Below, piece by piece: positions 27,136 to 57,582 of a stretch of 64,000 bases of DNA; positions within the stretch are counted from its first letter, which is position 1, and each line of letters opens with the position of its first letter. A program made the translations under genes and the position numbers. The notes below the pieces were generated by a model. That model was not told where the DNA came from, made no database searches, and was given only the letters and a program-made list of their open reading frames with translations. Source of the DNA: Bacillota bacterium. Lineage in GTDB: Bacteria > Bacillota > Desulfotomaculia > Desulfotomaculales > Pelotomaculaceae. The stretch covers positions 1 through 64,000 of the forward strand of contig JAKPTB010000097.1 of assembly GCA_029555205.1 (NCBI GenBank), in the 5' to 3' direction.

Positions 27136-27235
27136 TAAATCTGAGTCTCCATTGCCTGTGGTAATTAAACTATGGTAGGGAGGCCGGTAGGGTGTGGCGG
27201 GAAACCGGTACGCCTCCCAGTGCGGAAAGGATTTA
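27136..27235 (+). promoter_or_regulatory. Moco/Tuco-type riboswitch, copy 1
   Basis: A 100-nt element: P1 pairs TAAATC with GATTTA; then the conserved AGTCTC; one short stem TTGCC/GGTAG; then GGGAGGC pairing with GCCTCCC, capped by CCGGT/ACCGG; then the conserved GGAAAGG. This order and these words match the molybdenum-cofactor riboswitch as I remember it from E. coli moaA (AGCCUC, CAGGG, GCCUCCC, GGAAAGG). Only one stem lies between AGTCTC and AGGG, i.e. the P3 arm is absent, the compact form proposed to respond to tungsten cofactor. Confidence 0.75.
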
Positions 27236-27253
27236 ACGGTAATTCCAGGATGG

Positions 27254-27281
27254 CCGTCATGTTCTTACGCATGGCGGTTTT
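27254..27281 (+). terminator. Terminator of riboswitch copy 1
   Basis: CCGTCATG and CATGGCGG pair (one T-G) and are followed by TTTT. ACGGT just after the riboswitch can pair with the CCGT of this stem, offering an antiterminator. Confidence 0.6.
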
Positions 27282-27306
27282 ACTGCTTTATAACTGAAAA
27301 ATGATA

Positions 27307-27406
27307 TAAATCTGAGTTTCCATTGCCTGTGGTAATTAAACTATGGCAGGGAGGCCGGTAGGGTGTGCCGGGAAACCGGTGCGCCTCCCAGTGCGGAAAG
27401 GATTTA
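27307..27406 (+). promoter_or_regulatory. Moco/Tuco-type riboswitch, copy 2
   Basis: Second copy, 171 bp after the first, differing from it at only a few positions (GAGTTTCC, GGTGTGCCGGG, GTGCGCC). All paired elements and the GGAAAGG core are preserved. Confidence 0.75.
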
Positions 27407-27424
27407 ACGGTAATTCCAGGATGG

Positions 27425-27452
27425 CCGTCATGTTCTTACGCATGGCGGTTTT
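27425..27452 (+). terminator. Terminator of riboswitch copy 2
   Basis: The same CCGTCATG/CATGGCGG hairpin followed by TTTT, at the same spacing from copy 2 as the first terminator from copy 1. Confidence 0.6.
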
Positions 27453-27480
27453 GCTGCTTTATAACTGAAAAAAAATGACA

Positions 27481-27580
27481 TAAATCTGAGTCTCCATTGC
27501 CTGTGGTAATTAAACTATGGCAGGGAGGCCGGTAGGGTGTGGCGGGAAACCGGTACGCCTCCCAGTGCGGAAAGGATTTA
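27481..27580 (+). promoter_or_regulatory. Moco/Tuco-type riboswitch, copy 3
   Basis: Third copy, 174 bp after the second and again almost identical. The downstream part diverges from the first two units right after GATTTA, so this copy has a different expression platform, leading into the apbE leader. Confidence 0.75.
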
Positions 27581-27587
27581 GCTGACT

Positions 27588-27631
27588 AAGTAAGGGGCTC
27601 ATTATGACTAACTTGCTTTGCCGGCTTTTTT
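27588..27631 (+). terminator. Possible terminator of riboswitch copy 3
   Basis: AAGTAAG and CTTGCTT pair (one T-G) and a TTTTTT run follows after a short GC-rich stretch (TGCCGGC). The geometry is imperfect, so the call is tentative. Confidence 0.35.
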
Positions 27632-27676: not shown

Positions 27677-28735
27677 TTGAAGACGTGGACTGTTCTAGTC
27701 ACAATAATATTTGTGCTAATTGCTTGCGCCGGATGCGGGCAAAAGTCAACATCTTTGCAGGATTTTTCTGGTGAAGAGTTTATCATGAACACCCTGGTTC
27801 GGATCCAGGTTATTTGTGAAGATGAAGAAAAGGGGAGGAAAGCCCTAAAGCAAGCCTTTGATGTATTTAGAAAAATTGATCATTTGACAAACAGGTTTCC
27901 CGAAGGTGAGCTGGCAACTTCCTCACCTGGTGATGTGCTTAATATTAACGGCAGCGCCGGGCTTAAGCCCGTCAAGGTCAGTGTCGACACTGTCAGAATC
28001 ATCCAGCGTTCACAGTACTATGCCCGCTTAACCGGCGGTGCCTTTGATATTACTATTGGACCAATAATGGACAACTGGGGTTTTGGAAAGGGCATACAAT
28101 ATGTTCCCGCTGATGAGGAAATTAGCAGGGCGCTAAGTCTGGTGGACTACCGCAAAGTCGAAGCTGACCCGGGTAAGGGGACGGTTTTTTTACCGGAGCC
28201 GGGGATGAGTTTAGATTTGGGCGGAGTTGCCAAAGGCTATGCCATGGATGAAGCAGTTAAGGCTCTAAGGGAAGCAGGCATGAAACATGCCCTGATTAAT
28301 GCCGGTGGATGTGTGTATGCCCTGGGGACCAGGCCGGACGGAGAGCCATGGCGTGTGGGTATCCAGGACCCCCGCAGCAACGGGGACATTGTTGCCATAT
28401 TATCTTTAAAGGATTCAGCGGCGGTGACATCGGGCGACTATCAGCGTTATTTTGAACAGGAAGGTGTTCGCTACCACCATATTATAGATCCATCCACCGG
28501 GAAGCAGGCGAGGGATCTGATCCAGACAACAGTTGTTGCAGAATCTGCTACAGATGCGGATATATTATCTACGGCGCTGTTTGTCCTGGGGCCCCGCCGC
28601 GGGATGAGTTTCGTCGAGGATCTGCCGGGTACCGGAGCTGTCTTGATCGGGCCGGATAAACTCGTGTCGGTTACGGCTGGTTTAATTGATCAGTTAACTT
28701 TCACCGGGAATGGCGGGTATCAAATTGTTGGATAA
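27677..28735 (+). CDS. apbE: FAD:protein FMN transferase (ApbE lipoprotein)
   Basis: A 352-residue lipoprotein (signal ending VLIACAGC). It belongs to the ApbE family, which attaches FMN covalently to threonines of extracytoplasmic flavoproteins. Visible signatures: GEEFIMNTLVRIQV at the start of the domain, GGAFDITIGPIMDNWGFG, GMSLDLGGVAKGYAMDEA, HALINAGGCVYALG, and the catalytic end SGDYQRYF ... HHIIDPSTGKQA ... ADILSTALFVLG. It is the first gene after the triple leader RNA. A plausible substrate, an FMN-binding lipoprotein, lies at 47040-47660 in the same gene row. TTG is the start, with a weak GTGGTG site. Confidence 0.93.
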   Translation: MKTWTVLVTIIFVLIACAGCGQKSTSLQDFSGEEFIMNTLVRIQVICEDEEKGRKALKQAFDVFRKIDHLTNRFPEGELATSSPGDVLNINGSAGLKPVKVSVDTVRIIQRSQYYARLTGGAFDITIGPIMDNWGFGKGIQYVPADEEISRALSLVDYRKVEADPGKGTVFLPEPGMSLDLGGVAKGYAMDEAVKALREAGMKHALINAGGCVYALGTRPDGEPWRVGIQDPRSNGDIVAILSLKDSAAVTSGDYQRYFEQEGVRYHHIIDPSTGKQARDLIQTTVVAESATDADILSTALFVLGPRRGMSFVEDLPGTGAVLIGPDKLVSVTAGLIDQLTFTGNGGYQIVG

Positions 28736-28932: not shown

Positions 28933-29532
28933 TTGCAAATTTTACAGAAAATGCTCGATAAATTTTCAGTATTTGATTTGATTATCATTGCGATGATTTC
29001 TGCCCTTGGTATTGCCAGCAAACCGGTTATTGTGCCCCTCAGCCATATTATCACCGGGCCTTTATTGATACCCGGTGGTGTCGTGGCGGGTGGTTTTTAC
29101 ATGTTGTGGCTGGTACTCGGGGCGGGAATCGTCGGCAAACCGGGTACAGCAACTTTAATGGGGGTTATCCAGGCCCTGGCGGTCTTCGGAACGGGGGTAT
29201 TTGGTTCCCACGGGGCGATGAGTTTGCTCAGTTACACCTTTCCCGGCTTTGCTGTGGACCTGTTGCTCCTTTTAATCAGACACCGCGTCTGCTGTCCCCT
29301 GTGCGCTTTTCTGGCAGGTGTGGCTGCCAACGTCTCAGGCTCTGCCCTGGTCAACATAATTTATTTCCGGCTTCCTTTGATACCTTTAATCCTATCTTTG
29401 GCTGTGGCAACTTTATCTGGTGGCCTCGGTGGCCTTGTTGCATTTAAAATAATCCAACTGGTTAAAAAGAATAATTGTTTTAAAGACATCCCAAGCTCAG
29501 ATTCTAAGCAGGAGAAAGAGCAGGAATCATAG
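28933..29532 (+). CDS. ECF transporter S component (substrate unknown)
   Basis: A 199-residue membrane protein with about six segments, beginning FSVFDLIIIAMISALGIASK, which is the typical start of energy-coupling-factor S components of the thiamine-precursor/YkoE-like kind. It contains the small-residue patterns needed to contact EcfT. The last 30 residues are a charged cytosolic tail. TTG start with GAGGAG about 10 nt upstream. The matching ATPases and T subunit are probably those at 52721-54927. The structured RNA directly upstream could report its ligand. Because the row begins with Moco-type riboswitches and includes ApbE, a pterin, flavin or related precursor is possible; I cannot decide. 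Confidence 0.75.
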   Translation: MQILQKMLDKFSVFDLIIIAMISALGIASKPVIVPLSHIITGPLLIPGGVVAGGFYMLWLVLGAGIVGKPGTATLMGVIQALAVFGTGVFGSHGAMSLLSYTFPGFAVDLLLLLIRHRVCCPLCAFLAGVAANVSGSALVNIIYFRLPLIPLILSLAVATLSGGLGGLVAFKIIQLVKKNNCFKDIPSSDSKQEKEQES

Positions 29533-29751: not shown

Positions 29752-32700
29752 ATGAAAAAGATTTCCCTGTTCTTAAGGGCTGTCTTAAGCTTGTTTCTGC
29801 TGGCTGGATTCCTAGGCCTGACGGCGCCCATAGCCGCCCTGGCTGAAACACCGGCGTTGAGGATCAGCGGAGACGGAGTGACGTATCCCTTGGAGTTTAC
29901 CCTGCCCCAGCTTGAAGCAATGGAGCAGTACCAGCATGTGTACAGTACCGTTAACACCTGGCCCACCAAGAAATGGTGTGTGGGAAGAGGCGTTAAGATA
30001 AGGGACCTGCTAAATCAGGCAGGACTCAGGGAAAATGCCAAAGTGCTTAAATTCGTAGCTAAAGACGGTTTCGTAGTGACGCTTACAGTTGAAGAATTAT
30101 TAAACAGTCCCCGTTATTATTTTCCTCGCTTAATGGACAATCATCCCGACGACGGCAGCATTCCCGGCTCTCCGGAAGGCGCCGAGGTGGTAGAGCCAAT
30201 TCTGGCCCTGGTCAGTGTGGAAGGCAGTGATGCTCCTGCCCATATGAACTCCATGGATTCCTTGAGGCTGATTTTTGGGCAGCGGGCGGTTACCGAGCAG
30301 ACCTGTAGCTCATTTGCCAAGTATGTCAATCAAATCGTGGTATTGACAACTGAGCCGGAGAAATGGGATAAACCGCAGGCAAACCCTCAAGGCGGGATCG
30401 TACCAGCGGGTTCCATGGTGGAATTGAGCAACGCCCGGATGGACGAAGATAAGATCTACTACACGACGGACGGCAGCACCCCTGACCTTAACAGTCCCAT
30501 TTACAACTGGATCTCCAGCCGCTGGTGGTCTACACGCCAGGATGATTTGTACAGGATTAACCACCCGGTTGAAATCACCGGGGATACAATCATCAAAGCA
30601 GTCACCATCGGTCCCGGTAAGAAGAATAGTGATGTGGTAACCTTCACCTATCAGGTGTCCGTTTTACCTCCTCCGCAGCTGCAGGCTGATCTTACAGATA
30701 ATGCAGTGGGCAGCGCAATCGAGCTGACCTTTGAGGACGACGCGGCCTGGCGGGCGGCAATTACCGGTGTCAGTGTGAACGGATCCCCGTTGGCTGCTGC
30801 TGATTATCTTGTGGAGGCTGGCAAACTGACCATCAAGGCGGGTGTGATCAGAAACCCCGGAGATTACAATATAACGGTTAAGGCCACCGGATACGGGGAA
30901 GCCGGGGTGCTTCAGACCATCCTGCCGGGTTTGAAGATACCACCGGAACTGACGGCTGACACCGTGGATAACATAGTCGGCAAGGCAATTGAGCTGACCT
31001 TTGAGGACGACACGGCCTGGCGGGCGGCAATCACCGGGGTAAGCGTGGACGGTGAGGCTTTAGACGCCGGGAAGTATTCCCTGGAGACCGCCGGCATAAT
31101 CATTATCAGTGCAGATGTTTTCAATAAAGCTGGGGATTACGTTATAACGGTCCATGCTTCCGGCTACCTGGACGCCGTTGTGACCCAAACAATCAAGACT
31201 AAAGGAGGCTCGACCGACCCCGGGGGAGAAGTGGTGCTGACCATAACAGGGGATGGGGTGAGCACTTCCAAAACCTTTACCCTGGCCCAGCTCCAGGCGA
31301 TGGAGCAGTATCAGCACGTCTACAGTGCTATCAACACCTGGCCCAGCAAGAAATGGTACGTGGGTAAAGGGGTCCAGTTGAGAGAACTGCTCAATTCGGC
31401 TGGGCTTAAAGGGAGTGCCAAACAAATTAAATTTATTTCCCGCGACGGTTACACAGTGACGTTGACGGTGCAGGAGTTGCTCAGGGACAAACGTTATTAC
31501 TTTCCCCAATTAAAGGCCAATGACCCCAATTTAGGTCATATACCCGGCTCTCCCATAGGGGCGGAAGAGGTAGAACCCATTCTCGCTCTTGTTAGTGCCG
31601 AAGGTACTGACAATCCTGCCTTTATGAATGACATGGATGCCCTGCTGTTGATGATCGGACAGCGGGCGGTAACCGAGCAAAACGGTCATTTGTTTACTAA
31701 GTATGTTGAAAAAATTGAAGTACTGACTGCTGACCCGGGAACATGGGATAAACCGAGAGCTGAGCCTGGAAGTGGCAGAGTGTCAGCAGGGACCCTGGTA
31801 AAACTGAGCAATAACAACAGCGACGCCGATAAGATTCACTACACCACGGACGGCAGCACCCCGACCATAGAAAGCCCCATGTATAACTGGATTGCAAGCA
31901 GGTGGTGGTCGTCGCGTTCGGATGAGTTGGATAGCATTAATAAGCCTATAGAAATAACAAAGAACACAACAATAAAGGCAATAACAATAGGCCCGGGTAA
32001 AAAGAACAGCGAAGTTGCCACCTTTACCTACACAGTTACAGGTGGGGCGGTGGACATAAGCGACAGGATCTCCCCCCTTTCAGGCGGTACTATTAGACTT
32101 GACGATGAAGCGGTGATTGAAATACCTGCCGGGGCGCTGGCCGGAACTGCTGCGGTGGAAGTAAAAATAGAGAAGGTGACCGCGCCTCCCGCAGCTCCGG
32201 AGGGTTTCAAGCTGGTTAGCGGAGTCTATGAGTTCAGCGTGGACGGTAAGTACAGCTACAAATTTAATAAGGAAGTGACGATTAAGCTCGGCTACGATCC
32301 TGAAGCTGTTGGTGAGGGTGAGACTCCGGCCATCCATTATTACGACGAGGCTCAAGGCCAGTGGGTAAACATAGGCGGTACTGTATCCGGCGCAAGCGTC
32401 GCCGTGCAGGTGGACCACTTCACCAAGTTCGCCGTGCTGGCGGCTGACCAAATAACAGTAGCTGCCGGTAAAATTTCACCTCTCACAGGCGGTACGATTA
32501 GTCTTGACAATGAAGCCTTTATCGAAATACCGGCCGGGGCGCTGGCCGGAACTGCTGTGGTGGAAGTAAAAATAGAGAAGGTGACTGCGCCTCCCGCAGC
32601 TCCTGAGGGTTTCAAGCTGGTTAGCGGAGTCTATGAGTTCAGCGTGGACGGCAAGTACAGTTACACATTTAATAAGGAAGTAACAATTGAGATCGGTTAT

Positions 32701-33399
32701 AATCCTGAAGTCGTGGGTGAGGGTGAGACACCGGCCATCCATTATTACGACGAGGCTCAAGGCCAGTGGATAAACATAAGCGGTACCGTATCCGGCGCAA
32801 GCGTCGTCGTGCAGGTGGACCACTTCACTAAGTTTGCCGTGCTGGCAGCAGAAAAAGAACAGGAGCAAACTCTGACGGATATAACCGGCCATTGGGCTTA
32901 CGAGATGATCAACAAGCTGGTGGGCATGGGATGCATCAGCGGCTACCCCGACGGTACCTTTAAGCCCGACAATGCCATTACCAGGGCTGAATTTACCGTT
33001 GTGCTGGTTAAGGCCTTCGGGCTTGAGAACACAGGCGGCCCGCTCTTTACCGATACCACCGGACACTGGGCCAAAGACTACATTGAAACAGCAGCTTCCC
33101 ACGGAATAGTCAATGGTTACGACGACGGTACCTTTGGGCCGGACGACCTGATCACCCGTGAGCAGCTGGCAGTAATGCTCGTCAGGGTGGCTGAATTGAC
33201 GCCGTTAGCGGGAGAGCTTCGTTTTGCCGACAGCGCGAGTATTTCCCCATGGGCGGCAGAAGGCCTTGCCACTGCGATAGGGTACGGCATCATCAAGGGT
33301 TATCCCGATCAGACCATCAAGCCCGGGGGCAGCGCCACCAGGGCCGAGGCTGTGACGGTTATTGTCAATACCTTGAATGTTCTCAATGGATTAACTTAA
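29752..33399 (+). CDS. Large SLH surface protein with two SUOX-like/chitobiase-C-like pairs
   Basis: A 1215-residue exported protein with a Sec signal (cleavage after IAALAE). Domain order: SUOX-like molybdopterin-oxidoreductase domain (about 33-200; QLEAMEQYQHVYSTVNTW, then WPTKKW), chitobiase-C-like domain (about 215-300; YYTTDGSTPDLNSPIYNW), two DUF1533-like modules (about 310-470), a second SUOX-like/chitobiase-C-like pair (about 490-760), two nearly identical ZU5-like domains (about 770-1035) and three SLH repeats (about 1045-1215) for binding to the cell-wall polymer. The SUOX-like domains lack the classical Mo-ligand Cys at the expected place. It shares this architecture with five more genes downstream. 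A surface redox or binding role is inferred. Confidence 0.85.
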   Translation: MKKISLFLRAVLSLFLLAGFLGLTAPIAALAETPALRISGDGVTYPLEFTLPQLEAMEQYQHVYSTVNTWPTKKWCVGRGVKIRDLLNQAGLRENAKVLKFVAKDGFVVTLTVEELLNSPRYYFPRLMDNHPDDGSIPGSPEGAEVVEPILALVSVEGSDAPAHMNSMDSLRLIFGQRAVTEQTCSSFAKYVNQIVVLTTEPEKWDKPQANPQGGIVPAGSMVELSNARMDEDKIYYTTDGSTPDLNSPIYNWISSRWWSTRQDDLYRINHPVEITGDTIIKAVTIGPGKKNSDVVTFTYQVSVLPPPQLQADLTDNAVGSAIELTFEDDAAWRAAITGVSVNGSPLAAADYLVEAGKLTIKAGVIRNPGDYNITVKATGYGEAGVLQTILPGLKIPPELTADTVDNIVGKAIELTFEDDTAWRAAITGVSVDGEALDAGKYSLETAGIIIISADVFNKAGDYVITVHASGYLDAVVTQTIKTKGGSTDPGGEVVLTITGDGVSTSKTFTLAQLQAMEQYQHVYSAINTWPSKKWYVGKGVQLRELLNSAGLKGSAKQIKFISRDGYTVTLTVQELLRDKRYYFPQLKANDPNLGHIPGSPIGAEEVEPILALVSAEGTDNPAFMNDMDALLLMIGQRAVTEQNGHLFTKYVEKIEVLTADPGTWDKPRAEPGSGRVSAGTLVKLSNNNSDADKIHYTTDGSTPTIESPMYNWIASRWWSSRSDELDSINKPIEITKNTTIKAITIGPGKKNSEVATFTYTVTGGAVDISDRISPLSGGTIRLDDEAVIEIPAGALAGTAAVEVKIEKVTAPPAAPEGFKLVSGVYEFSVDGKYSYKFNKEVTIKLGYDPEAVGEGETPAIHYYDEAQGQWVNIGGTVSGASVAVQVDHFTKFAVLAADQITVAAGKISPLTGGTISLDNEAFIEIPAGALAGTAVVEVKIEKVTAPPAAPEGFKLVSGVYEFSVDGKYSYTFNKEVTIEIGYNPEVVGEGETPAIHYYDEAQGQWINISGTVSGASVVVQVDHFTKFAVLAAEKEQEQTLTDITGHWAYEMINKLVGMGCISGYPDGTFKPDNAITRAEFTVVLVKAFGLENTGGPLFTDTTGHWAKDYIETAASHGIVNGYDDGTFGPDDLITREQLAVMLVRVAELTPLAGELRFADSASISPWAAEGLATAIGYGIIKGYPDQTIKPGGSATRAEAVTVIVNTLNVLNGLT
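32062..32855 (+). repeat. Tandem duplication of the ZU5-like domain
   Basis: Two copies of about 390 bp with a 405-bp period (32062-32450, 32467-32855) are nearly identical at DNA level, e.g. both contain GAAATACC, GCCGGGGCGCTGGCCGGAAC and GTGGACCACTTCAC. This is a recent internal duplication. Confidence 0.75.
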
Positions 33400-33619
33400 G
33401 GGTCAGATAAATACAAAATCTGTTGCCGCACATAAATAAATGAAAAGAAAGAGGAACAAACCGGCAGTAGGGTAACAAGGAGGGACGATAGTGTAAGGGA
33501 TAATTGCAGCAAGGACTTCAAATGGATGGGAGACACTCCTCACCCTGGAGGAATGTCCCGGCTGAATACCGTAGTGGCCGGATGCCCCGGTGGAACTTAG
33601 ATCTGGAGGAATGCTTCCG

Positions 33620-35284
33620 ATGTCATATTCAAGCTTAGTAAAAAAGTGCTGCAAATTCCCGGTTGCGCTCCTGGGTTTGCTGCTGGTTGCTTTTCTTAAC
33701 CTGACGGAGCCCGGGGCAGTTTTTGCCGAACAGTCGGACACGATTGAAATCACAGGCGAAGGCGTGACTACACCTGTGACATTAACCCTGGTCCAACTCC
33801 AGGCAATGGAGCAATATCAGCATGTATACAGTACAATAAACACCTGGCCCACAAAGAAATGGTACGTAGCCAGAGGTGTTAAACTGAGGGACCTGTTTGC
33901 CCTGGCCGGCCTCAAGGAAGATGCTACGCTGATCAGGTTTCTGTCGAAGGACGGCTTCGAGGTGACACTTACGGTCAAGGAGATGTTGCAGGACAAGCGT
34001 TACTATTATCCCCGTTTAATGGAGAATCATCCCAGCGATGGGAGTATCCCGGGCTCAACGGAGAAAGCGGTGGAGGTGGAGCCGATCCTGGCCCTGCTCA
34101 GTGCCGAGGACAGCAACAAACCCGCCGATATGAACGACAGGGATGCCTTACTTCTGCTTATGGGACAACGGGCGATTTCCGAGCAGACCAATAGTTTGTT
34201 TTTAAAATATGTAAATAAAATCGAAGTTCTTACCACCCCCCCGCAAAAATGGGATAATCCCAAAGCAGATCTGGATAGTGGAGAGGTGCCTGCGGGTTCT
34301 CTGGTAAGATTGAGCAATAAACGCAATGACGTTGATAAGGTTCATTACACGACGGACGGCAGTATACCAGATTTAAACAGCCCGATCTTCAACGTAAGCT
34401 CCAGCCGGTGGTGGGCGTTACGGCCTGATTTAGATCTTGTCAACCAGCCGATTAAAATCGACAAGGACACTGTAATTAAGGCCATCACCATTGGTCCCGG
34501 CAAGCTGGACAGTGATGTTGTCACTTTTACCTACAAGGCTGATTATTCGGGCAGGGCGGCTGAGCGGGCAAAACTCCCTGCCGCACCGCCCACCGATTTG
34601 ACCCTGGACCAGGATAAAGCCGAACTCAAAATCGGCAGCTCAATTATGCTGAGTGCCTCCCTAGGTTCGGGCAATGCCGGTGACACAGGCCTGGTCTGGA
34701 GTTCCAGCGACACCAGCGTGGCCACAGTGGATCACAACGGCCTGGTTACGTTGATCGGACCGGGTGCAGCCGTAATAACTGTGAAAACGGCAGACGGCAA
34801 TTTAGCGGCCACCTGCGTGGTGCGGAGCCCGGACCAGAACAGCAGGGAACAGGATGCTGAACCAGACTTTGTTCAACAGGATTTAGCCCTGGAAGAGTAC
34901 CAGATTGTGCCGCCGGCAGCGGAACCTGTGGAGCAACCGCCGGTGGAAGAGATAAACGCAGGTACCGAAAGTTCCGGCGAAGAGCCGGTAGAACCGGTTG
35001 AAACACTAGAAGTTGAAACAGCAGAACCGGAAGAGCCAATCGAAAACGGACAGTATTTGGCGGTGAAGGAGGATTTAGCCGCTGCAGCAGACACAAATGC
35101 CGCCGGGGAACAGACGGAAAACCAGCTTGTACAGGTATTCGAAATTTCGGTGGAGGCCGGGCTCTCGCAGCTGCCGGTGGAGCAGAACAATTTGGATTTT
35201 TATACGGCAGGATTCTTTGTTTTCCTGTTCCTTCTTGGTGCAAGCAGAAGATACATGGAGTACGTGAGGGAGGTTAAAAGGTGA
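33620..35284 (+). CDS. C-terminally anchored SUOX-like surface protein with Ig and Glu/Pro-rich stalk
   Basis: A 554-residue exported protein. After a signal peptide (ending AVFAEQ) come a SUOX-like domain (about 40-210), a chitobiase-C-like domain (about 220-310), a bacterial Ig-like Big_2 domain (about 323-404; VWSSSDTSVATVDHNGLVT), a long Glu/Pro-rich stalk (about 412-514) and one membrane segment near the C-terminus (FYTAGFFVFLFLLG) with a short basic tail. It is therefore anchored by its C-terminus with the domains outside. Its stop overlaps by 4 bp (GTGA) the start of an ExbB/TolQ-like gene, and an ExbD-like DUF2149 gene follows. The stalk recalls that of TonB, with inverted topology. 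I use ATG 33620 with GGAGGA upstream. Confidence 0.85.
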   Translation: MSYSSLVKKCCKFPVALLGLLLVAFLNLTEPGAVFAEQSDTIEITGEGVTTPVTLTLVQLQAMEQYQHVYSTINTWPTKKWYVARGVKLRDLFALAGLKEDATLIRFLSKDGFEVTLTVKEMLQDKRYYYPRLMENHPSDGSIPGSTEKAVEVEPILALLSAEDSNKPADMNDRDALLLLMGQRAISEQTNSLFLKYVNKIEVLTTPPQKWDNPKADLDSGEVPAGSLVRLSNKRNDVDKVHYTTDGSIPDLNSPIFNVSSSRWWALRPDLDLVNQPIKIDKDTVIKAITIGPGKLDSDVVTFTYKADYSGRAAERAKLPAAPPTDLTLDQDKAELKIGSSIMLSASLGSGNAGDTGLVWSSSDTSVATVDHNGLVTLIGPGAAVITVKTADGNLAATCVVRSPDQNSREQDAEPDFVQQDLALEEYQIVPPAAEPVEQPPVEEINAGTESSGEEPVEPVETLEVETAEPEEPIENGQYLAVKEDLAAAADTNAAGEQTENQLVQVFEISVEAGLSQLPVEQNNLDFYTAGFFVFLFLLGASRRYMEYVREVKR

Positions 35285-35937
35285 CAGTATCTATCCTGGC
35301 CCCGCTTAGAGACACAATGCATACTATTTCGTCCGGTTTGCTGATGCCCACCATAACTGTTCTACTGTTGCTGCTTGCTTTTTCGGCGGTTGAACTGGGT
35401 GGTCTGCTGGTGGAAACCCTGACAGAGCGGCGCAGGATGAGGGTTAATGTGCCGGATCTGGTGGAAGCCTTTCAGGGGAAGGGCGCCGATGAGATTAGAA
35501 AGGAGATTGAAAAGAGCAGCCTTTTCCGGCGCCAGAAAAAAGCCCTGGGCCAGTTAATCGACCACAGTGCTTTACCCGCCTCTTCCCTGCAGGCCCTGGC
35601 CCGCAAGCTGCTTTCCGGGGAAGAACTGCACTATGCCAGGATTACCAACAGGACTGACCTGGTGGCCCGTCTCGGACCTATGCTGGGCTTAATGGCCACG
35701 CTGATTCCACTGGGACCGGGGATGATCGCCCTGGGGCAGGGTGACACAAAAATTCTGGCAGAATCCCTGCTCACTGCTTTTGACGCTACGGTGACAGGGC
35801 TGGCCGCCGCCGGTGTTGCCTACGCCATCTCCCGGCTGCGGAAAAGATGGTACGAAGATTACTTGAGTTCCCTTGAAGCCCTGATGGAAAGCCTGTTGGA
35901 GGTGTTTACCCGTGCACAGTGGATTGAGGAGCAGTAG
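35281..35937 (+). CDS. MotA/TolQ/ExbB-like proton channel subunit
   Basis: A 218-residue membrane protein. The layout fits TolQ/ExbB: a first membrane segment (about 15-40), a long cytosolic helical part (about 45-120; RRRMRVNVPDLVEAF, FRRQKKALGQLI), and a closely spaced pair of membrane segments beginning RLGPMLGLMATLIPLGPGM and LTAFDATVTGLAAAGVAYAI, the conserved ExbB block in which polar Thr residues line the channel. The start overlaps the upstream surface-protein gene by 4 bp and the end overlaps the DUF2149 gene by 26 bp, so the three are translated together. In diderms this family powers TonB- or Tol-type work; here the organism appears to have no outer membrane. Confidence 0.88.
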   Translation: MTVSILAPLRDTMHTISSGLLMPTITVLLLLLAFSAVELGGLLVETLTERRRMRVNVPDLVEAFQGKGADEIRKEIEKSSLFRRQKKALGQLIDHSALPASSLQALARKLLSGEELHYARITNRTDLVARLGPMLGLMATLIPLGPGMIALGQGDTKILAESLLTAFDATVTGLAAAGVAYAISRLRKRWYEDYLSSLEALMESLLEVFTRAQWIEEQ

Positions 35938-36226: not shown

Positions 36227-36386
36227 ATCAGGTTTATTGTCATCCAGCGCATACGGGACCGGGGTTTAGTAGTTGTATAACCAGCTTGTAGGATTTAAGC
36301 GCGCTGCTTTAGCAGAATGCACGGCTGGAGCGACCCGGGGTCTGATGCAGATATGTAGTTTAATCACAGAAGGGAGAGTAAAAGCA

Positions 36387-49197: not shown

Positions 49198-49544
49198 AAA
49201 ATAATTTTGTTTCCTAAAATTAATAACCCTTACAGGCGGAATGAAGTATTTAAGCTACTTAAGCCCCTGCTGCCTGCAGGCCGGTTGGTTGAAAAAGGGG
49301 GGTGGACTGGTTTTGTTCTCAGCAAACAGGGATTAAGCGCTGTCAAGCCTTGTTAAGTTTTGACGGGTCAGGTAACCGCTTATGCCCTCCCTGCTCGTCC
49401 ACTGGGGGTAAAGTAGATACCTGCCAGCTTTGCTTGAACCCTGTTTTACGATACCGGGATAGGGTAAAAAGAGGTAATAAGAAGGAACTATATTTAATTG
49501 GAACGGGATACTTGAAGCCAATTAAAAGAGAGGAGGATTCTCCA
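49198..49544. other. Intergenic region, nothing clear
   Basis: About 350 bp. The frame of the next gene is open through most of it but has no signal peptide or ribosome binding site before 49545. I see no structured RNA. Confidence 0.4.
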
Positions 49545-51135: not shown

Positions 51136-52701
51136 ATGAGGCCTGGATTTGCCACTTTAAAAGGAAACATACCTGCGGCGGCAAGGATTGTTTGCCTGGT
51201 TTTCCTGTTATCGGTGATTTCTTGCTGCTGGTTTTTCCCTTCTGCCGCTTCAGCCGGGGATTCTCTGCAGCCTGAAGGGATTATTCTGACCTGGACTGGG
51301 GACCCGGCTGGCTCTCAGACAATTACCTGGTTGATGCCGGATGATGAGCCTGCCTGTGTACAGTACTTAAGCTCGGACGGGTTTACCGGCAGCTTTGCAG
51401 GCGCTCAGGAAATCAGCGCCGGGTGTTCGAAATTCGACAGTACCAATTACCGTTTTACGGCGACTATAACGGGATTGAACCCGGGTACAAAGTACATCTA
51501 CCGGGTCGGCCGGGAAGGGTCCTGGAGTGAAGCTTTATCCTTTACCACTGCCGCGGACACGGAAAAATTTGAATTTTTATATATGGGAGATGTGCAGTCG
51601 GGGTATACCCAGTGGGGCAGCACTCTGAATTCTGTTTATCAGACCTATCCCCAAATCAAGTTTGCTCTTTTGGGCGGGGATTTGACGGACAACGGCGATG
51701 ATGAAAATGAGTGGGGACAATTTCTTGATGCCGCGACGGGCGTATTCTCTTTGATCCCGGTGATGCCAACCCTGGGAAACCACGATGGGAGTATGTATTT
51801 AAATTTCTTTGCCTTGCCGGAGAACGGCCCCGTAGGCTTAAAGCGGGAATTTTACTCCTTTGATTACGGGAATGCCCATTTTGTAGTACTGGACACCAGA
51901 AACAATACTGATGAAAGGGTAAAGCAATGGCTGCAGGAAGACCTCCAGGCTGCTACAAAAAAGTGGAAGTTTGTCGTTTTTCATATGCCGGCCTATCCGG
52001 CCACTTATGATTATAAGGAAATTGATAAGTCCATAAGGGCAAACTGGATCCCAATCTTGGAACAGAACAGGGTGGACATGGTCTTTGTGGGACACCAGCA
52101 TCAGTATATGCGCACCCATCCCATTTTTCAGGGAGAAGTCCAGACCAGTCCGGCGGCTTACGGAATTGTCTATGTGATGGGAAATGCCGGCTCCAAGACC
52201 TACACGGGGAGCGGGGAGTTTCCCTATATCGCCGTTGAACGGACCGGCAGCAACTATCAGATTATCCAGATTGACGGTGATGTTTTGACGCTGACGGCTA
52301 AAGAGGCAAACGGTGAACTGATTGAAATCTATACCATAAATAAAGGAGGCACGGCCCCTCAGGAACCCGCCTACACACTTTCTCCCCTGCCTGATTCTGC
52401 CTATACCACCGGGACAACTAAGGACGGCATCAAGACAATGACTGTCAATGCCGGTGTGGCAGGGTTCAAATACTTTACTGTGGGCGTTACACCGGTTACT
52501 ACCCACAGTGGTAAAGAGACAGTGGTTTTCACCCACCTGAGAAACGGTATTCAGCTTGGACTTAACGCCGCCAGGGCTGATTTTGACCAGGTTGATTCTG
52601 CCCAGGCTGGTTTTAATGTCCGGCAGGGTGATGTAGTCAAGGCCTATATAGTTGACTGCTTAACCAGCGCCGCCGGTGCCAACCCTGTGATTCTGCAATA
52701 A
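51136..52701 (+). CDS. Secreted purple-acid-phosphatase-like metallophosphoesterase
   Basis: A 521-residue exported protein (signal ending SAASAGD). Residues about 40-140 form an Fn3-like N-terminal domain typical of purple acid phosphatases. Residues about 145-395 form a metallophosphoesterase domain with its five blocks: YMGDVQSGY, LLGGDLTDNGDDENEW, TLGNHDGSMY, FVVFHMPAYPATY and VFVGHQHQYMRT. The C-terminal 105 residues (about 415-521) are nearly the same as the end of the 1780-residue protein (GFKYFTVGVTPV, KETVVFTHLRNG, QLGLNA), so both probably attach to, or recognise, the same thing. It could release phosphate from nucleotides or cofactors before uptake; this is inference. It is 20 bp from the ECF module. 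Confidence 0.88.
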   Translation: MRPGFATLKGNIPAAARIVCLVFLLSVISCCWFFPSAASAGDSLQPEGIILTWTGDPAGSQTITWLMPDDEPACVQYLSSDGFTGSFAGAQEISAGCSKFDSTNYRFTATITGLNPGTKYIYRVGREGSWSEALSFTTAADTEKFEFLYMGDVQSGYTQWGSTLNSVYQTYPQIKFALLGGDLTDNGDDENEWGQFLDAATGVFSLIPVMPTLGNHDGSMYLNFFALPENGPVGLKREFYSFDYGNAHFVVLDTRNNTDERVKQWLQEDLQAATKKWKFVVFHMPAYPATYDYKEIDKSIRANWIPILEQNRVDMVFVGHQHQYMRTHPIFQGEVQTSPAAYGIVYVMGNAGSKTYTGSGEFPYIAVERTGSNYQIIQIDGDVLTLTAKEANGELIEIYTINKGGTAPQEPAYTLSPLPDSAYTTGTTKDGIKTMTVNAGVAGFKYFTVGVTPVTTHSGKETVVFTHLRNGIQLGLNAARADFDQVDSAQAGFNVRQGDVVKAYIVDCLTSAAGANPVILQ

Positions 52702-52720: not shown

Positions 52721-53476
52721 GTGGGAGCAGTTACTGTTGACAGGCTCGGTTTTAGGTATCAGCCGGCAGCCGGAGAGGTCCTGAAAAATATCAGCTTCAC
52801 CCTTGAAAAAGGGGAGATAGCAGCACTTTTGGGTTTGAGTGGGTGCGGTAAAAGCACCTTGTGCCTGTGTTTGGGCGGTATTATCCCCCACTTGCTCGGG
52901 GGTGAAATGACAGGACGGGTCCTGATCAACGGAAAGGACACGAAAGATTACAAAGTTGCCCAACTGGCCCTGGAGGTTGGACTGGTTTTCCAGGATCCCG
53001 ACACGCAGCTTTTTTTACCCACTGTGGAAGATGAAATAGCCTTTGCACCGGAAAACCTTTGCCTGCCTGTGGCAGAGGTGGCAGCGCGGGTAAACAACGT
53101 TTTGGAACACCTGGGAATCGATGACCTGAGGTATGCAAATCCAAACAACTTATCCGGCGGGCAGAAACAACTGGTTGCCATGGGCGCAGTTCTGGCCCTG
53201 GACCCCGGCGTCCTGGTGCTTGATGAGGCAATGGCCCAGCTGGACCAGGACGCTAAAATTAAAATTAATGACATCCTTTGTGATTTGCGCCGGAGAGGCA
53301 AAACCATTTTAATTGTGGAACATGATCTGGAAAACGTGTCCATAGCCGATCGAGTTCTCATCCTTGAAAACGGATTGCTGATCAGAGATGGACAAGCATC
53401 AGGTGTGCTGGGAGAGCGGGAATTCCTGATCCGGCACAAACTGAAATTCGAAGAAGAGCCGGGGATGGACAGATGA
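52721..53476 (+). CDS. ECF transporter ATPase (EcfA1/CbiO-like)
   Basis: A 251-residue ABC ATPase: Walker A LLGLSGCGKSTLCLCLGG near residue 35, Q-loop FQDPDTQLFLPTVEDEIAF, signature NNLSGGQKQLVAMGAVLAL, Walker B VLVLDEAMAQLD and switch His in LIVEHDLENVSI. The PDTQLF/EDEIAF segment is typical of energy-coupling-factor ATPases. The GTG start lies 19 bp after the phosphatase gene, and its end overlaps the second ATPase by 4 bp. The T subunit follows. The S component is probably encoded at 28933; the Gx-family protein at 55380 is another candidate. Confidence 0.9.
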   Translation: MGAVTVDRLGFRYQPAAGEVLKNISFTLEKGEIAALLGLSGCGKSTLCLCLGGIIPHLLGGEMTGRVLINGKDTKDYKVAQLALEVGLVFQDPDTQLFLPTVEDEIAFAPENLCLPVAEVAARVNNVLEHLGIDDLRYANPNNLSGGQKQLVAMGAVLALDPGVLVLDEAMAQLDQDAKIKINDILCDLRRRGKTILIVEHDLENVSIADRVLILENGLLIRDGQASGVLGEREFLIRHKLKFEEEPGMDR

Positions 53477-54132
53477 GTTTTATTGACTTAATTGATGTCA
53501 GTTTCAGCTACCCGGGCCAAAGGGGACATGTGTTAAAGGGGATCAATGTAAGTATTCAAAAGGAGGGGATTACTGCTGTCACGGGACCCAACGGCAGCGG
53601 TAAAACCACATTCTCCAAGCTGATCACCGGTATCCTGAAACCAACAAAAGGCTCAATCACGGTCAGTGGACAACCCCTGGCATCCCTGACCCTGTCCCAA
53701 ATCGGCCGCAAGATTGGTTATGTTTTTCAAAATCCCGGCAAACAGCTGTTTTGTGAAACAGTGGAGGAAGAAATTGGTTTCGGTTTGCGGAATCTCGGCA
53801 TGCCTCCGGACCAGGTATCCCGTAAAACAGGCGAGATCATGGAATACTTTGAGTTGACCAGGTATGCCCGGTCATTCCCCTTGAGTTTAAGTGCTGGGGA
53901 AAAGAGGCGGCTGGCCATAGCGGCGGTTTTGGCCCTGGAACCGGATATGCTTGTTCTCGATGAACCCACGACAGGTCTCGACCCTTACCGGAAAAAACTA
54001 TTGGGTGATTATTTGGAAAGAATAGCAGCTTCAGATAGAGGTGTGGTTATTATCAGCCATGACCACAGGTTCATTGGCAGGCACGCCACCAGGTTGCTCA
54101 AGCTGGAAGGCGGGCAGTTCGAAGAGTTGTGA
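53473..54132 (+). CDS. ECF transporter ATPase (EcfA2-like)
   Basis: A 219-residue ABC ATPase, paralogous to the preceding gene. Walker A is TGPNGSGKTTFSKLITG near residue 35, then FQNPGKQLFCETVEEEIGFG, signature SLSAGEKRRLAIAAVLAL, Walker B LVLDEPTTGLD and switch His in IISHDHRF. The 4-bp ATGA overlap with the first ATPase shows translational coupling. The C-terminus is short compared with many EcfA proteins, which usually carry an extra dimerisation domain. The two ATPases should form the heterodimer that drives the T subunit. Confidence 0.9.
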   Translation: MSFIDLIDVSFSYPGQRGHVLKGINVSIQKEGITAVTGPNGSGKTTFSKLITGILKPTKGSITVSGQPLASLTLSQIGRKIGYVFQNPGKQLFCETVEEEIGFGLRNLGMPPDQVSRKTGEIMEYFELTRYARSFPLSLSAGEKRRLAIAAVLALEPDMLVLDEPTTGLDPYRKKLLGDYLERIAASDRGVVIISHDHRFIGRHATRLLKLEGGQFEEL

Positions 54133-54174
54133 CCCGGAATACTGGCACCAATGGTAGAAGGACAGGGAAAGAAC

Positions 54175-54927
54175 ATGATCGATATTGATCCCAGGACCAA
54201 GATAGTGGTTATTGTGTGTTTGTCAACTCTGGCTGTTTTTCTTAATACACCCGGTTTATTGCTCCTTTTGTTTGCCTTTACGCTGGTTGTTCTGTCATTA
54301 TTACGCGTAAACTTCCTGGGGATTACAGCAAGATTTAAGAAACTGATCCCCCTGTTGCTGGCAATGCTGTTCATTCAGAGCGTCTTTGCTCCGGGGGGTG
54401 AAGTGCTGCTTTCCCTGGGGGGTGTTCCCATCCTGACGGCTCATGGGATTAATTCAGCGCTCTGCATCTTGTTCCGGATGCTTACATTCTTTGCCTCGGC
54501 GATGATTATCATGACCAGCAACTCCAAAGACTATATTCTTGCCCTGGTCCAGTTGAAAATTCCTTATGAAATAGCTTTTATGGTCATGGTGGCATTTCGT
54601 TTTTTGCCTGTTTTTGTGGAGGAGGTCAAGGATACTCTGGTAGCAATCCAACTCCGGGGTGTCGACCTGAAGAAAATTCCCTGGCGAAACAAGCTCAAAT
54701 TTTACAGCCATTTTTTCACTCCCCTGCTCACCAGCGTTATGATCAAAGCCCAACAACTGTCCATCACGATGGAGGCAAGGGCCTTCAGGGTTTACCGGCG
54801 GCGTACCTACCTGCGGGTTTTAAAATATAGCAGGTTGGACTATCTTGTTATGGCTGTTTTTATAATCTCTACTCTGACAGTGCTGATGCTGGATTTTATT
54901 GATGTTTTACAGGCGGCTAAAAACTGA
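54175..54927 (+). CDS. ECF transporter T component (EcfT)
   Basis: A 250-residue membrane protein. It starts IDIDPRTKIVVIVCLSTLAV, the usual EcfT entry (DPRTKL), has about five membrane segments, and carries two coupling-helix motifs with the Ala-Arg-Gly-like triplets: AIQLRGVDLKKIP near 160 and TMEARAFRVYRRRTYL near 200. These contact the ATPase pair encoded directly upstream. I use ATG 54175 with AGGGAAAG upstream; ATG 54151 is possible but lacks a good site. With A1, A2 and T contiguous but S distant, the module may serve more than one S component. Confidence 0.88.
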   Translation: MIDIDPRTKIVVIVCLSTLAVFLNTPGLLLLLFAFTLVVLSLLRVNFLGITARFKKLIPLLLAMLFIQSVFAPGGEVLLSLGGVPILTAHGINSALCILFRMLTFFASAMIIMTSNSKDYILALVQLKIPYEIAFMVMVAFRFLPVFVEEVKDTLVAIQLRGVDLKKIPWRNKLKFYSHFFTPLLTSVMIKAQQLSITMEARAFRVYRRRTYLRVLKYSRLDYLVMAVFIISTLTVLMLDFIDVLQAAKN

Positions 54928-54947
54928 AGACGAAGGCCGGTGAGCCT

Positions 54948-55337
54948 GTGAAAAAGCTGGATTGCTGTCTAACTATCGTCCTTCTGGCTCTGGTTCTGGT
55001 CAGTTTGGCGGCGCTTTACCTGCTGCAGGGCAGGCCGGCGGGGGAAAATTTAACTGTTGAAATTTATAAGAATGACCGCCTGTACCGGAGCATGCCACTG
55101 GCTGAAACTTCAGCCGGGGAAATTAAGATTTCAGACTCAGAGGGGCATTATAATTTGGTTGAGTTTAAAGACGGCAAAGTCAGGGTTAAAGAAGCGGATT
55201 GCCCCAATCAAGTATGTGTCAAAACGGGATGGCTGAGCAAACCCGGCAGAATATCGGTTTGCGCGCCAAATAAGTTAAAAGTAATTGTTAAGGGTAAATC
55301 AGAAGGGACGGGCCGGGTTGATACCATTACCTATTGA
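54948..55337 (+). CDS. NusG domain II-containing exported protein
   Basis: A 129-residue protein with an N-terminal membrane anchor (about 8-26) and one NusG_II domain outside (about 35-122), recognised by VRVKEADCPNQVCVKTGWLS and the following ISVCAPNKLKVIVKG. The three cysteines in DCPNQVCV and ISVC are typical of the family. In many Firmicutes such genes sit directly before a Gx-family transporter gene, as here (42 bp), and near ApbE and FMN-binding genes; from memory, the EetA/EetB pair of flavin-based extracellular electron transfer loci is of this kind. The function is not known from the sequence. Confidence 0.85.
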   Translation: MKKLDCCLTIVLLALVLVSLAALYLLQGRPAGENLTVEIYKNDRLYRSMPLAETSAGEIKISDSEGHYNLVEFKDGKVRVKEADCPNQVCVKTGWLSKPGRISVCAPNKLKVIVKGKSEGTGRVDTITY

Positions 55338-55379
55338 ACGACACTGTTGCCTATTAATCTTAAAGGATATGGTTATTGC

Positions 55380-55895
55380 ATGTTTAACACGAGAAGGATG
55401 GCTGTAATTGCTGTGTTTGTGGCCCTGGCTACGGTGTTTAACATTGTGGAAAGGTCCGTGCTTGTCCCTGGTCTCCCCCCGGGGGTTAAACCGGGCCTGG
55501 CCAATGTGATTACTCTATTGTCGATTCTGACCCTGGGTTTTAGGGATGCTTTTTTTATTGTTGCTGTCAGGTGTTTCATGGGAGCACTAATCGCCGGCAA
55601 TCCGGTCAGTTTCTTATTTAGTTTCAGTGGCGGTGTACTCAGCACCCTGGTCATGGTTGTAATGTGGAGATATTTTAATAAAGTTGTCAGTATTGTCAAG
55701 ATCAGCATGGTTGGAGCCGTCTGCCATAATCTTGGCCAGTTGTTCATAGCGGCCCTGCTGGTCCGGTCCTGGCAGGTTTATGTTTTTTTGCCCGTACTGA
55801 TGATCTCTGCTGTTATCACCGGGTATATCGTTGGTGTCTTGACCAGGCAATTGTACATCTCCCTGGACCAGCGAAATCTGAGATGGACTGATTAA
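55380..55895 (+). CDS. Gx transporter family membrane protein
   Basis: A membrane protein of about 171 residues with five or six segments, beginning RRMAVIAVFVALATVFNIVE, followed by LPPGVKPGLANVITLLSILTLG (the P-G-x-K-x-G-x-A-N motif of the family often annotated heptaprenyl diphosphate synthase component I), RDAFFIVAVRCFMGALIAG and FLFSFSGGVLSTLVM. These proteins resemble ECF S components and pair with NusG_II proteins. The name linking it to quinone synthesis is historical, so I do not assert it. I use ATG 55380; a TTG at 55347 is the alternative. It closes the ECF/NusG_II block. Confidence 0.82.
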   Translation: MFNTRRMAVIAVFVALATVFNIVERSVLVPGLPPGVKPGLANVITLLSILTLGFRDAFFIVAVRCFMGALIAGNPVSFLFSFSGGVLSTLVMVVMWRYFNKVVSIVKISMVGAVCHNLGQLFIAALLVRSWQVYVFLPVLMISAVITGYIVGVLTRQLYISLDQRNLRWTD

Positions 55896-56063
55896 CCGGA
55901 CCGGAAAGCGCGTCTGGCGGCAGGGGGGAGACAGCCATAGAAGCCGCTAAGTATCCCCGGACCGGCCTGTTTACAGAACTGAACCGGGGTGTTTTAGTTA
56001 TCAAGTATCCTCCGCCAGTGAATCCTGCAATATAAAAGGGCATAAGCAAAGAGGTGATTTGAA

Positions 56064-56816
56064 ATGAAAGTTTTTTCAGTATTTGGGGTTTCCCTGTCAG
56101 GTAAAACCACAACCATTGAACATATTATTGCTGAACTAAAAAGAAGGGGTTACAGGGTGGGTTCGGTTAAAAACATTCATTTTGAAAAATTTACCCTTGA
56201 TTTGGAGGGCAGCAACACCTGGAGACATAAACAGGCCGGTTCGGAGCTGGTGGTGGCAAGGGGTTTGAGGGAGACGGGTGTTCTCTTCCCGCAAAAACTG
56301 GGCATGGATAAAATACTTAGTTATTTTGATCATGATTATGTTGTTGTGGAAGGCGTAGCTGATACCGTCCTGCCTAAAATACTCTGTGCCGGTGAGCCCG
56401 GGGAGATTGAGAGCCGGTTTAATGATCTGGTATTTTTGATTTCCGGACGTATTTCCAATCAATTAACAGAATATAAGCATGTGCCGGTGCTGAACCCCCT
56501 GCGGGAGATCGAAAAACTTGTCGATGTAATTGAAGAAAAAGTTGCTGAAAAAATGCCCTTTGTCCAGGGACTGGACCATTGTAACGCTTGCGGCAGTAAT
56601 TGCAGGGATTTTGCTGTGGGAATTCTCAAGGGCGAGAGAAGGCGGGAGGAATGTGTTTACGTAAAAGACAGGGTATCCCTTTTTATCGGACAGCAGGAAG
56701 TAAAAGTCAACTCGTCATTTGTCGCAGGGTTAAGGGGGTTACTGGACGGCCTTATAACTCAGCCGGAGAATTATAATCCCCTTGATGAGATAAAAATAAC
56801 CATAGGGAAGAAATAA
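56064..56816 (+). CDS. mobB: MobB-like molybdopterin-guanine-dinucleotide synthesis protein with Cys-rich tail
   Basis: A 250-residue P-loop protein. Residues 1-160 match MobB: FSVFGVSLSGKTTTIEHII (Walker A), KNIHFEKFTLDLEG, DTWRHK-type segment (SNTWRHKQAGSELVVARG) and VVVEGVADTVLPKI. MobB proteins bind GTP and assist attachment of a nucleotide to molybdopterin. The C-terminal extension (about 170-250) carries CNACGSNCRDFAVGILKG and a further Cys in RREEC, a likely iron-sulfur or zinc site not found in short MobB. GAGGTG precedes ATG. It places Mo/W cofactor maturation in the same row as the Moco-type riboswitches. The next gene starts after one base, so the two are co-translated. Confidence 0.85.
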   Translation: MKVFSVFGVSLSGKTTTIEHIIAELKRRGYRVGSVKNIHFEKFTLDLEGSNTWRHKQAGSELVVARGLRETGVLFPQKLGMDKILSYFDHDYVVVEGVADTVLPKILCAGEPGEIESRFNDLVFLISGRISNQLTEYKHVPVLNPLREIEKLVDVIEEKVAEKMPFVQGLDHCNACGSNCRDFAVGILKGERRREECVYVKDRVSLFIGQQEVKVNSSFVAGLRGLLDGLITQPENYNPLDEIKITIGKK

Positions 56817-56817
56817 A

Positions 56818-57582
56818 GTGGATTGTATAAATATCCTGCAAGAAGCTCTGAAAGTGAAGGTGCTGTCCTGTAAAAAGAAACTGAGCCTGCGAAATAACGT
56901 GTTTTATGTCGAAACGGTTTCCGGAGATGGCTTGAAAAGGCCATATATCATTAAAGAACACCTGCACTCTTCAAACGGGGATGAAGTGTTTTTCCTGAGC
57001 ACTTTGAAGCGGTATGGCCTCAATGTGCCGGAGATTATCTGGCATGATTCCAAATTTATAATCATGGAGTATATCCAGGGCACTTTGTTGACGGATTTGG
57101 TTGCAAGCCCCGACGGGGATCAGGAATTATGGATCAAACAACTGGCCCATTGGTTAAGAAAAATGCACGGGTTTATAAACTCACCCAGCCGGGTTTGTTT
57201 GTGCAAGTCTGACTTAAACCTGCGCAACTTTATTTTTGACGGCAGGGAGTTTTATGGCCTGGATTTTGAAGACGTTTGTTTTTATCACCCGGAGAGGGAT
57301 TTGGGGGTAATCTGTGCTTTTATCCTCAATAATGACCCTATGTTTGAACAGTGGAAGTACCAAATCTGCAATTCCCTGATCAAGGCCTATGAAAGGGCGA
57401 CGGTTAATAGTTGCTTTACTGAACTCGACCGTGAGGCAATATGGTATTATATAATAGAAGAGCTAAAAGCGGCCGCCTCCAGGCGGGAAAAACAACGGGA
57501 CTTTCTGAACGCTAAGATTAAAGAGCTAATTGTCCTGCAAAAAGCCTCCGCCGGTTTAAAGGATTTTCTGACCGGCTCTTGA
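56818..57582 (+). CDS. Small kinase-fold (APH/RIO-like) protein
   Basis: A 254-residue soluble protein with a reduced kinase fold. The ATP-side Lys is likely in RPYIIKEHLH near residue 43; the hinge FIIMEYIQGTLLTDLV follows near 80-95. The catalytic loop reads CLCKSDLNLRNFIFDG near 125, where the usual His-Gly-Asp is Cys-Lys-Ser-Asp, and the metal-binding block is YGLDFEDVCFYHPERDLG near 147. It resembles aminoglycoside-phosphotransferase or Kdo-kinase-like proteins. GTG start one base after the mobB-like stop. The altered catalytic loop leaves activity open. The pairing with MobB suggests a role on a small molecule of the cofactor route; that is inference. Confidence 0.8.
   Translation: MDCINILQEALKVKVLSCKKKLSLRNNVFYVETVSGDGLKRPYIIKEHLHSSNGDEVFFLSTLKRYGLNVPEIIWHDSKFIIMEYIQGTLLTDLVASPDGDQELWIKQLAHWLRKMHGFINSPSRVCLCKSDLNLRNFIFDGREFYGLDFEDVCFYHPERDLGVICAFILNNDPMFEQWKYQICNSLIKAYERATVNSCFTELDREAIWYYIIEELKAAASRREKQRDFLNAKIKELIVLQKASAGLKDFLTGS

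Follow-up and report, generated by a model that had tools for sequence, protein, structure and literature searches.

Haem uptake in the Bacteroidota Hmu operon combines the CobN-like protein HmuS with HmuV and HmuU, which are of the ExbB and DUF2149 types, and the HmuS de-chelatase is anchored by transmembrane (TM) helices at both ends (PMC10434189; PMC12583661). PruR proteins are exported, cysteine-less pterin binders with the sulfite oxidase (SUOX) fold that carry no metal and work with DcpA, as its sensor subunit, in cyclic di-GMP signalling (PMC13259868). The P3-less form of the molybdenum/tungsten cofactor (Moco/Tuco) aptamer has been linked to the tungsten cofactor by Regulski et al. 2008 (PMC2408646), who described a triple P3-less Moco RNA in series in Syntrophomonas wolfei, with terminators after the first two, and two other P3-less RNAs that precede 'sulphite oxidase' genes. 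Here we analyze a gene row in a 64,000 nt stretch (the window) of contig JAKPTB010000097.1 from a bacterium of the Pelotomaculaceae, in which a Moco/Tuco-type leader, exported SUOX-fold proteins, an ExbB/DUF2149 stator pair and an importer stand together. L-numbers denote loci, and G-numbers (G005, G006) genomes, compared in the analysis. The source bacterium inhabits methane-producing communities. A sequence-only reading of the row had offered two models, (a) extracellular electron transfer to surface Mo/W proteins and (b) stator-energised capture and uptake of a Mo/W-pterin or precursor. Model (b) is favored here, because the core of the system travels with two alternative importers and its stator is also the one that works with CobN in haem uptake; model (a) is weakened.

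Related loci were gathered by searching for DUF2149 in the family and class, fetching ~20 kb around matches and scanning GTDB contigs with an ExbB alignment. More than 100 loci were collected, some being one place present twice; the contig loci come mostly from metagenome-assembled genomes, the nearest named relatives being Pelotomaculum and other Desulfotomaculia. A SUOX protein anchored by a C-terminal TM helix with a basic tail lies directly 5' of ExbB-DUF2149 in 72/80 contig loci, with CobN in one and seven unresolved. Carriers are Pelotomaculum, Syntrophomonas, Desulfoscipio, Sporotomaculum, Petroclostridium and rumen/gut Clostridia, and this gene order demonstrates a conserved partnership of TM-anchored SUOX protein, ExbB and DUF2149, which we term the core. 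In a second kind of locus a high-scoring DUF2149 is partnered by CobN, usually plus DUF2162. In the bridging cases L108 and L111 the stator is of a divergent type and the slot before ExbB holds a short CobN protein; L108 also has a FecCD permease. The two kinds of locus and the cases between them indicate that a single stator family works with two kinds of protein that handle cofactors. No CobN-like de-chelatase was found in the window's row, where the SUOX protein fills its slot, and no TonB receptor was found in the loci examined, unlike Hmu.

The core is also associated, by position, with P3-less Moco/Tuco riboswitches. A Moco RNA occurs within ~10 kb of 12/27 SUOX-type loci vs 0/18 high-scoring or CobN-slot controls, 17 of them CobN-verified (p=0.001); many loci being short contigs, riboswitch and importer counts are lower bounds. 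The regulatory grouping and gene partnership on whose conservation in relatives the sequence-only reading had staked its proposal are thus found there. Tandem aptamers lie directly 5' of the gene for the S component of the YkoE family (YkoE-S) in L082, L083 and L120, and aptamers precede both ApbE and YkoE-S in L249 and L250, which belong to the same genus as the window. They lie 5' of the phosphatase gene in L097, L106, L110 and L112, and in the first three of these again 5' of the giant SUOX gene; relatives thus have a riboswitch at a place (40117-40573) where no fourth, degenerate one was detected in the window, even without filters. Among the rumen/gut loci, L187 and L193 have a Moco RNA 5' of their first SUOX gene; downstream of L176 and L193 come a Moco RNA, an AOR tungstoenzyme and a MobB-family gene. 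Moco RNA matches number 23 to 30 in each of the genomes G005 and G006, exceeding the 15 that were noted in 2008 for S. wolfei.

The window's own leader is of the Moco/Tuco type, as had been proposed, but comprises three tandem RF01055 aptamers rather than a single element. Matches of 57-61 bits (cut-off 36) cover the whole aptamer, model positions 1-135, and a terminator-like hairpin follows each. The P3 stem is absent, its positions being deleted in the Rfam alignment of the best aptamer, which was seen in full; the other two are near-identical to it in sequence. Judged by the absence of P3, the leader aptamers are of the tungsten-type form. In units 1 and 2 an antiterminator fold (-59.9 and -63.7 kcal/mol, vs -57.6 and -61.9 kcal/mol for P1 plus terminator) sequesters the 3' part of the aptamer along with the 5' arm of the terminator. 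Ligand binding worth only ~2 kcal/mol would shift these units to termination, so the folding model predicts that they act as an OFF switch. In the same folding analysis, unit 3 shows a terminator but no clear antiterminator.

Oxidored_molyb (PF00174) domains are present in eight exported proteins, consistent with the earlier count of at least seven, and are encoded by the genes starting at 29752 (two copies), 33590, 36273, 38008, 38984, 40573 (several), 46061 and 48682. Some of these matches alone fall below the Pfam cut-off, and the SUOX fold was confirmed by AlphaFold2. Against solved structures, a sequence search with the SUOX plus CHB domain gave weak matches only, and fold comparison was therefore used. 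The model of residues 48-322 of the TM-anchored protein (SUOX_TM; 120 sequences, pLDDT 97.6) shows a SUOX domain followed by an Ig-like CHB_HEX domain, and matches SoxCD (2xts, Z 15.2), SorA (2blf, Z 15.0) and PruR with neopterin (7rkb, Z 13.6). The 48682 protein (pLDDT 92.3) has PruR 7kom as its top match both by fold (Z 16.1; next unrelated fold Z 4.0) and, at E 0.0067, by sequence. Residues ~600-840 of the giant SUOX protein (40573-45915) contain two repeats resembling a DUF4430/transcobalamin-type ligand-binding domain, on which Pfam is silent.

The label of Mo/W-type domains given in the sequence-only reading probably does not hold for these proteins. No conserved Mo-ligand cysteine was found among 120 SUOX domains: the residue aligned to the Mo-ligand cysteine of MsrP is T46/A37/V13/C11/S11, a placement resting on a short alignment, weak there (hhalign probability 3.8%), and on the lack of a conserved cysteine nearby. 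Cysteine occupies this position (position 35 of the A4 alignment) in 11/120 domains. Export signals are of the Sec or lipoprotein type; no twin-arginine (Tat) motif was found in 7/8 SUOX proteins, and the signal of the 38984 lipoprotein, although RR stands at position 2, is of the lipobox kind. A Tat signal does occur in the same genome, on a molybdoenzyme encoded behind another Moco RNA. On the evidence of the models, the domains should be named PruR-like (putative pterin-binding SUOX fold) and not Mo/W enzymes. This likeness raises the possibility of envelope pterin sensing in the style of PruR-DcpA, with the stator relaying a mechanical or ion signal inward. PruR is itself a sensor subunit (PMC13259868) and the surface SUOX proteins are many and different; however, the conserved core holds no cyclase, kinase or other output domain, and transporters are its constant partners, so we give sensing little probability. 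The SLH, CHB_HEX, Big_2 and NosD modules could instead point to S-layer or adhesion proteins that reuse a SUOX-like fold beside unrelated genes. Conserved gene order with stator and importer, the riboswitch link, and near-invariant polar or aromatic residues (S34, N37, W39, P40, R90, Q146, K159) argue against this reading, which we rate lowest of all.

In model (a), electrons would flow from an ApbE-flavinylated protein and NapH to SUOX-type Mo/W enzymes at the cell surface. ApbE, FMN_bind, NapH and EetA/EetB-like genes do lie within the row, NapH-like flavin systems serve oxidoreductases (PMC8238504), and Gx/EetB is the S component of a flavin adenine dinucleotide (FAD) exporter (PMC9973259). 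However, flavin/NapH/ApbE/Eet genes occur in 9/72 SUOX loci while the stator is constant, and on this gene content the flavin relay is accessory to the SUOX-stator core. The model is further weakened by the cysteine counts and by Sec or lipoprotein export where a molybdoenzyme of the same regulon uses Tat, and a stator is unnecessary for electron transfer; we consider it distinctly unlikely. Neither Ndh2 nor a PplA-type flavoprotein, the marks of Listeria-type electron transfer, is among the row's Pfam matches. In Listeria, EetB (Gx) and FmnA (EcfT) export FAD (PMC9973259), and by analogy the energy-coupling factor (ECF) ATPases of the window could be shared between the importer and a FAD exporter.

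The separate S component proposed earlier is a YkoE-family protein (28933, PF09819). An orthologue is present in 21/26 SUOX-system genomes vs 2/87 others (p=4e-16), and the count by genus is 9/2/1/43 (p=8e-8), the latter being the only one of these p-values that does not ignore shared ancestry. Within the window's family, YkoE and DUF2149 are both present in 16 genomes, DUF2149 only in none, YkoE only in one (64% complete) and neither in eight. The ECF parts in the row are complete (S component, EcfT, two EcfA). The A-A-T module lies directly 3' of YkoE-S in L119, L122, L124 and L249, the parts being contiguous in L249; in the window it lies 23 kb downstream of YkoE-S but is orthologous (71-74% identity to L089). 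MobB is 3' of the ECF genes in L243 too, a conserved adjacency. In the inspected loci of gut Clostridia, FecCD, an ATP-binding cassette (ABC) ATPase and Peripla_BP_2 take the place of ECF, and FecCD occurs in 16 SUOX loci. Gene content therefore shows the core traveling with one of two importers, YkoE-type ECF or FecBCD. L239 (2843-3124 and downstream), L245 and L248 (5235-13599) hold a second and distant YkoE-like S component, accompanied by EcfA1-EcfA2-EcfT, behind Moco RNAs and downstream of a CCG/Fer4 iron-sulfur protein; this may be another cofactor-regulated ECF importer. In G005 (L243:260-1465, L242:16309-19900) a Moco RNA is followed directly by a FecCD-ABC-Peripla_BP_2 operon that includes an SLH protein, and the operon's binding protein resembles HI_1472 and 4ovk.

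These importers could instead belong to metal acquisition, the surface proteins and transporters taking up tungstate, molybdate or a small W/Mo complex and not a pterin cofactor. This is the main rival, and a serious one because the FecB-type proteins resemble HI_1472, which we take to be MolA, a molybdate/tungstate binder. A Moco RNA lies directly 5' of FecCD in L243, and in the window's own genome two tandem Moco RNAs (L099:2334-2624) precede a PBP_like_2 (TupA-like) binding protein. On the other side, SUOX/PruR folds bind pterins and not oxyanions, a Tup-type tungstate system is already present in the genome, the row carries MobB and not a metal chaperone, and no molybdate or tungstate transporter of the ECF type is known to us; on balance we think metal uptake unlikely. 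Elsewhere in the window, a gene at 3564-4529 (-) appears by eye to encode a LysM domain fused to a TupA-type tungstate-binding protein.

We tentatively favor, with a confidence somewhat short of even, a system in which the stator is coupled to the capture and import of a pterin cofactor, either Tuco/Moco itself or a molybdopterin-type precursor or degradation product, and which is switched on when the cofactor is scarce. The associations described above lead us to infer what the ligand is, which way it is transported, that the stator supplies the energy and that the flavin branch has a helper role. Free cofactor would stabilise the aptamers and end transcription early. When it is scarce, SLH- and lipid-anchored SUOX-fold proteins would bind pterin outside the cell, the TM-anchored SUOX protein with its ExbB/DUF2149 ion channel would strip or hand over the ligand like the CobN-type HmuS, the S component and ECF ATPases would move it across the membrane, and MobB would process it inside. 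The optional ApbE/FMN_bind/NapH/EetAB branch may keep the ligand reduced.

Several points weigh against pterin import. Moco RNAs in the window's genome also precede formate dehydrogenases and the TupA-like gene, so riboswitch control alone does not imply uptake. No importer is seen in 41/72 SUOX loci within the stretch covered, many of these being short contigs, and the binding proteins of the gut variant have the HI_1472 likeness noted above. The pockets of PruR are described as too small to hold Moco (PMC13259868), and YkoE of B. subtilis binds thiamine through contacts with Trp49, Glu77 and Gln95 (PMC5037267). MoaC is present in 106/113 genomes, which makes their own molybdopterin synthesis possible and means that uptake would only supplement it; strict Moco auxotrophy was rejected on the same count. 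The thiamine-contact residues may not be kept in the YkoE-type S components of these genomes, by comparison with a YkoE sequence. Haem uptake through the Shr-like HID domains was also rejected, because the row showed no further haem gene and its riboswitch points to a different cofactor.

From 27677 to 57582 the row holds 23 genes, all of them on the + strand, in line with the single strand first described (Table 1). Pfam bore out the families named at that stage (ApbE, FMN_bind, NapH-like Fer4_5, MotA_ExbB, DUF2149, CbiQ/EcfT, NusG_II, Hpre_diP_synt_I (Gx), MobB with FeS, and purple acid phosphatase), and NCBIfam the identity of EcfA. The riboswitch does open the row, but MobB does not close it, since the last gene (56818) encodes an APH/RIO-like kinase; the 49302 protein is corrected to SLH only. 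A catalase-peroxidase (KatG-like) gene at 22754-24955 lies just 5' of the row, and L249 encodes a similar protein at the corresponding position.

Table 1 Features of the gene row in the window.
Feature	Coordinates	Strand	Evidence
Leader, three tandem aptamers (27127-27248, 27298-27419, 27472-27593)	27127..27593	+	RF01055
ApbE lipoprotein (FAD:protein FMN transferase), accessory	27677..28735	+	PF02424 4e-85
ECF S component, YkoE family, candidate pterin S component	28933..29532	+	PF09819 1.9e-15; co-occurs with SUOX/stator core
Surface protein, 2x SUOX + CHB_HEX_C, 2x Shr-like HID, 3x SLH	29752..33399	+	Pfam
Core SUOX protein, C-terminal TM helix and basic tail, directly 5' of ExbB	33590..35284	+	Pfam; AlphaFold2 fold; slot kept in relatives
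ExbB/MotA-type ion channel	35281..35937	+	PF01618 1.2e-7
DUF2149, ExbD-like partner, NivDaMLVF membrane helix conserved	35912..36226	+	PF09919 8e-9; 114-sequence alignment
Surface protein, SUOX + CHB_HEX_C + SLH	36273..37946	+	Pfam
Lipoprotein, SUOX + CHB_HEX_C	38008..38919	+	Pfam
Lipoprotein with SUOX domain	38984..40117	+	PF00174 6e-11
Giant exported protein, several SUOX domains + NosD beta-helix	40573..45915	+	Pfam
Lipoprotein, SUOX + CHB_HEX_C	46061..46999	+	Pfam
FMN_bind lipoprotein, accessory	47013..47660	+	PF04205
NapH-like polyferredoxin, accessory	47710..48585	+	Pfam, NCBIfam
Small membrane-anchored SUOX/PruR-like protein	48682..49197	+	PruR 7kom by sequence (E 0.0067) and fold (Z 16.1)
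SLH surface protein	49302..50957	+	Pfam
Exported purple-acid-phosphatase-type metallophosphatase	51136..52701	+	Pfam
ECF module EcfA1-EcfA2-EcfT	52721..54927	+	Pfam, NCBIfam; orthologues (71-74% identity) adjoin YkoE-S in relatives
NusG_II + Gx, EetA/EetB-like	54948..55895	+	PF07009, PF07456; Gx is the counterpart of the FAD-exporting S component (PMC9973259)
MobB with FeS domain	56064..56816	+	PF03205 5e-20; TIGR00176 above cut-off
APH/RIO-like kinase	56818..57582	+	also adjoins MobB in L243

To our knowledge, no bacterial uptake machine for the W/Mo pterin cofactor has been described, and literature searches, which covered few subscription journals, returned no paper on this gene cluster. 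A 2026 review states that how pterins cross bacterial membranes is still unknown (PMC13259868), and a study of C. elegans notes that no other organism had been observed to take up exogenous Moco, and raises the question of how Moco is harvested and gets through membranes (PMC9793310). For this question the locus puts forward specific receptor candidates, together with a power unit and two importers. We regard as rather doubtful the stricter proposal of a dedicated importer of the intact W/Mo pterin cofactor, in which PruR-like 'pterinophores' would feed a proton- or sodium-driven SUOX-stator and then ECF or FecBCD, turned off by the cofactor through the riboswitch. If it were true, Moco/Tuco would be a shared good in anaerobic communities, and such a route would let syntrophic and gut anaerobes share a costly W/Mo cofactor.

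Compared with known systems, the leader has the same arrangement as that of S. wolfei, with three P3-less aptamers and terminators after two, but the latter precedes molybdopterin-synthesis and transport genes, and the surface system went unrecognised there. The window domains share their fold with sulfite oxidases and the MsrP family (2blf, 2xts) but differ in lacking a conserved Mo-ligand cysteine and in their Sec or lipoprotein export. They resemble PruR as exported SUOX folds without that cysteine (Z 13-16); unlike PruR with its partner DcpA, they form a set of many surface proteins with a stator and importer. The S component belongs to the same Pfam family as that of the YkoEDC thiamine importer and has EcfA/EcfT partners, but in these genomes is tied to the SUOX/Moco-riboswitch locus and not to thiamine genes. 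ApbE, the EetA/EetB-like NusG_II/Gx pair and the ECF genes resemble the flavin electron transfer locus of Listeria, a genus not known to have the SUOX/stator core; the branch is optional in the window system. By analogy, Hmu is the closest working model: there too, these two stator proteins accompany an exported, membrane-anchored protein that handles a cofactor. The window system differs from it in having a candidate receptor of the SUOX/PruR fold in the CobN slot, an ECF or FecBCD importer and control by a Moco riboswitch, and would add a new receptor class to stator-coupled cofactor acquisition, probably with a new ligand class as well. This comparison suggests a general rule: cofactor capture is powered by ExbB/DUF2149 stators, which work with CobN when the cofactor is a tetrapyrrole and with SUOX/PruR folds when it is a pterin.

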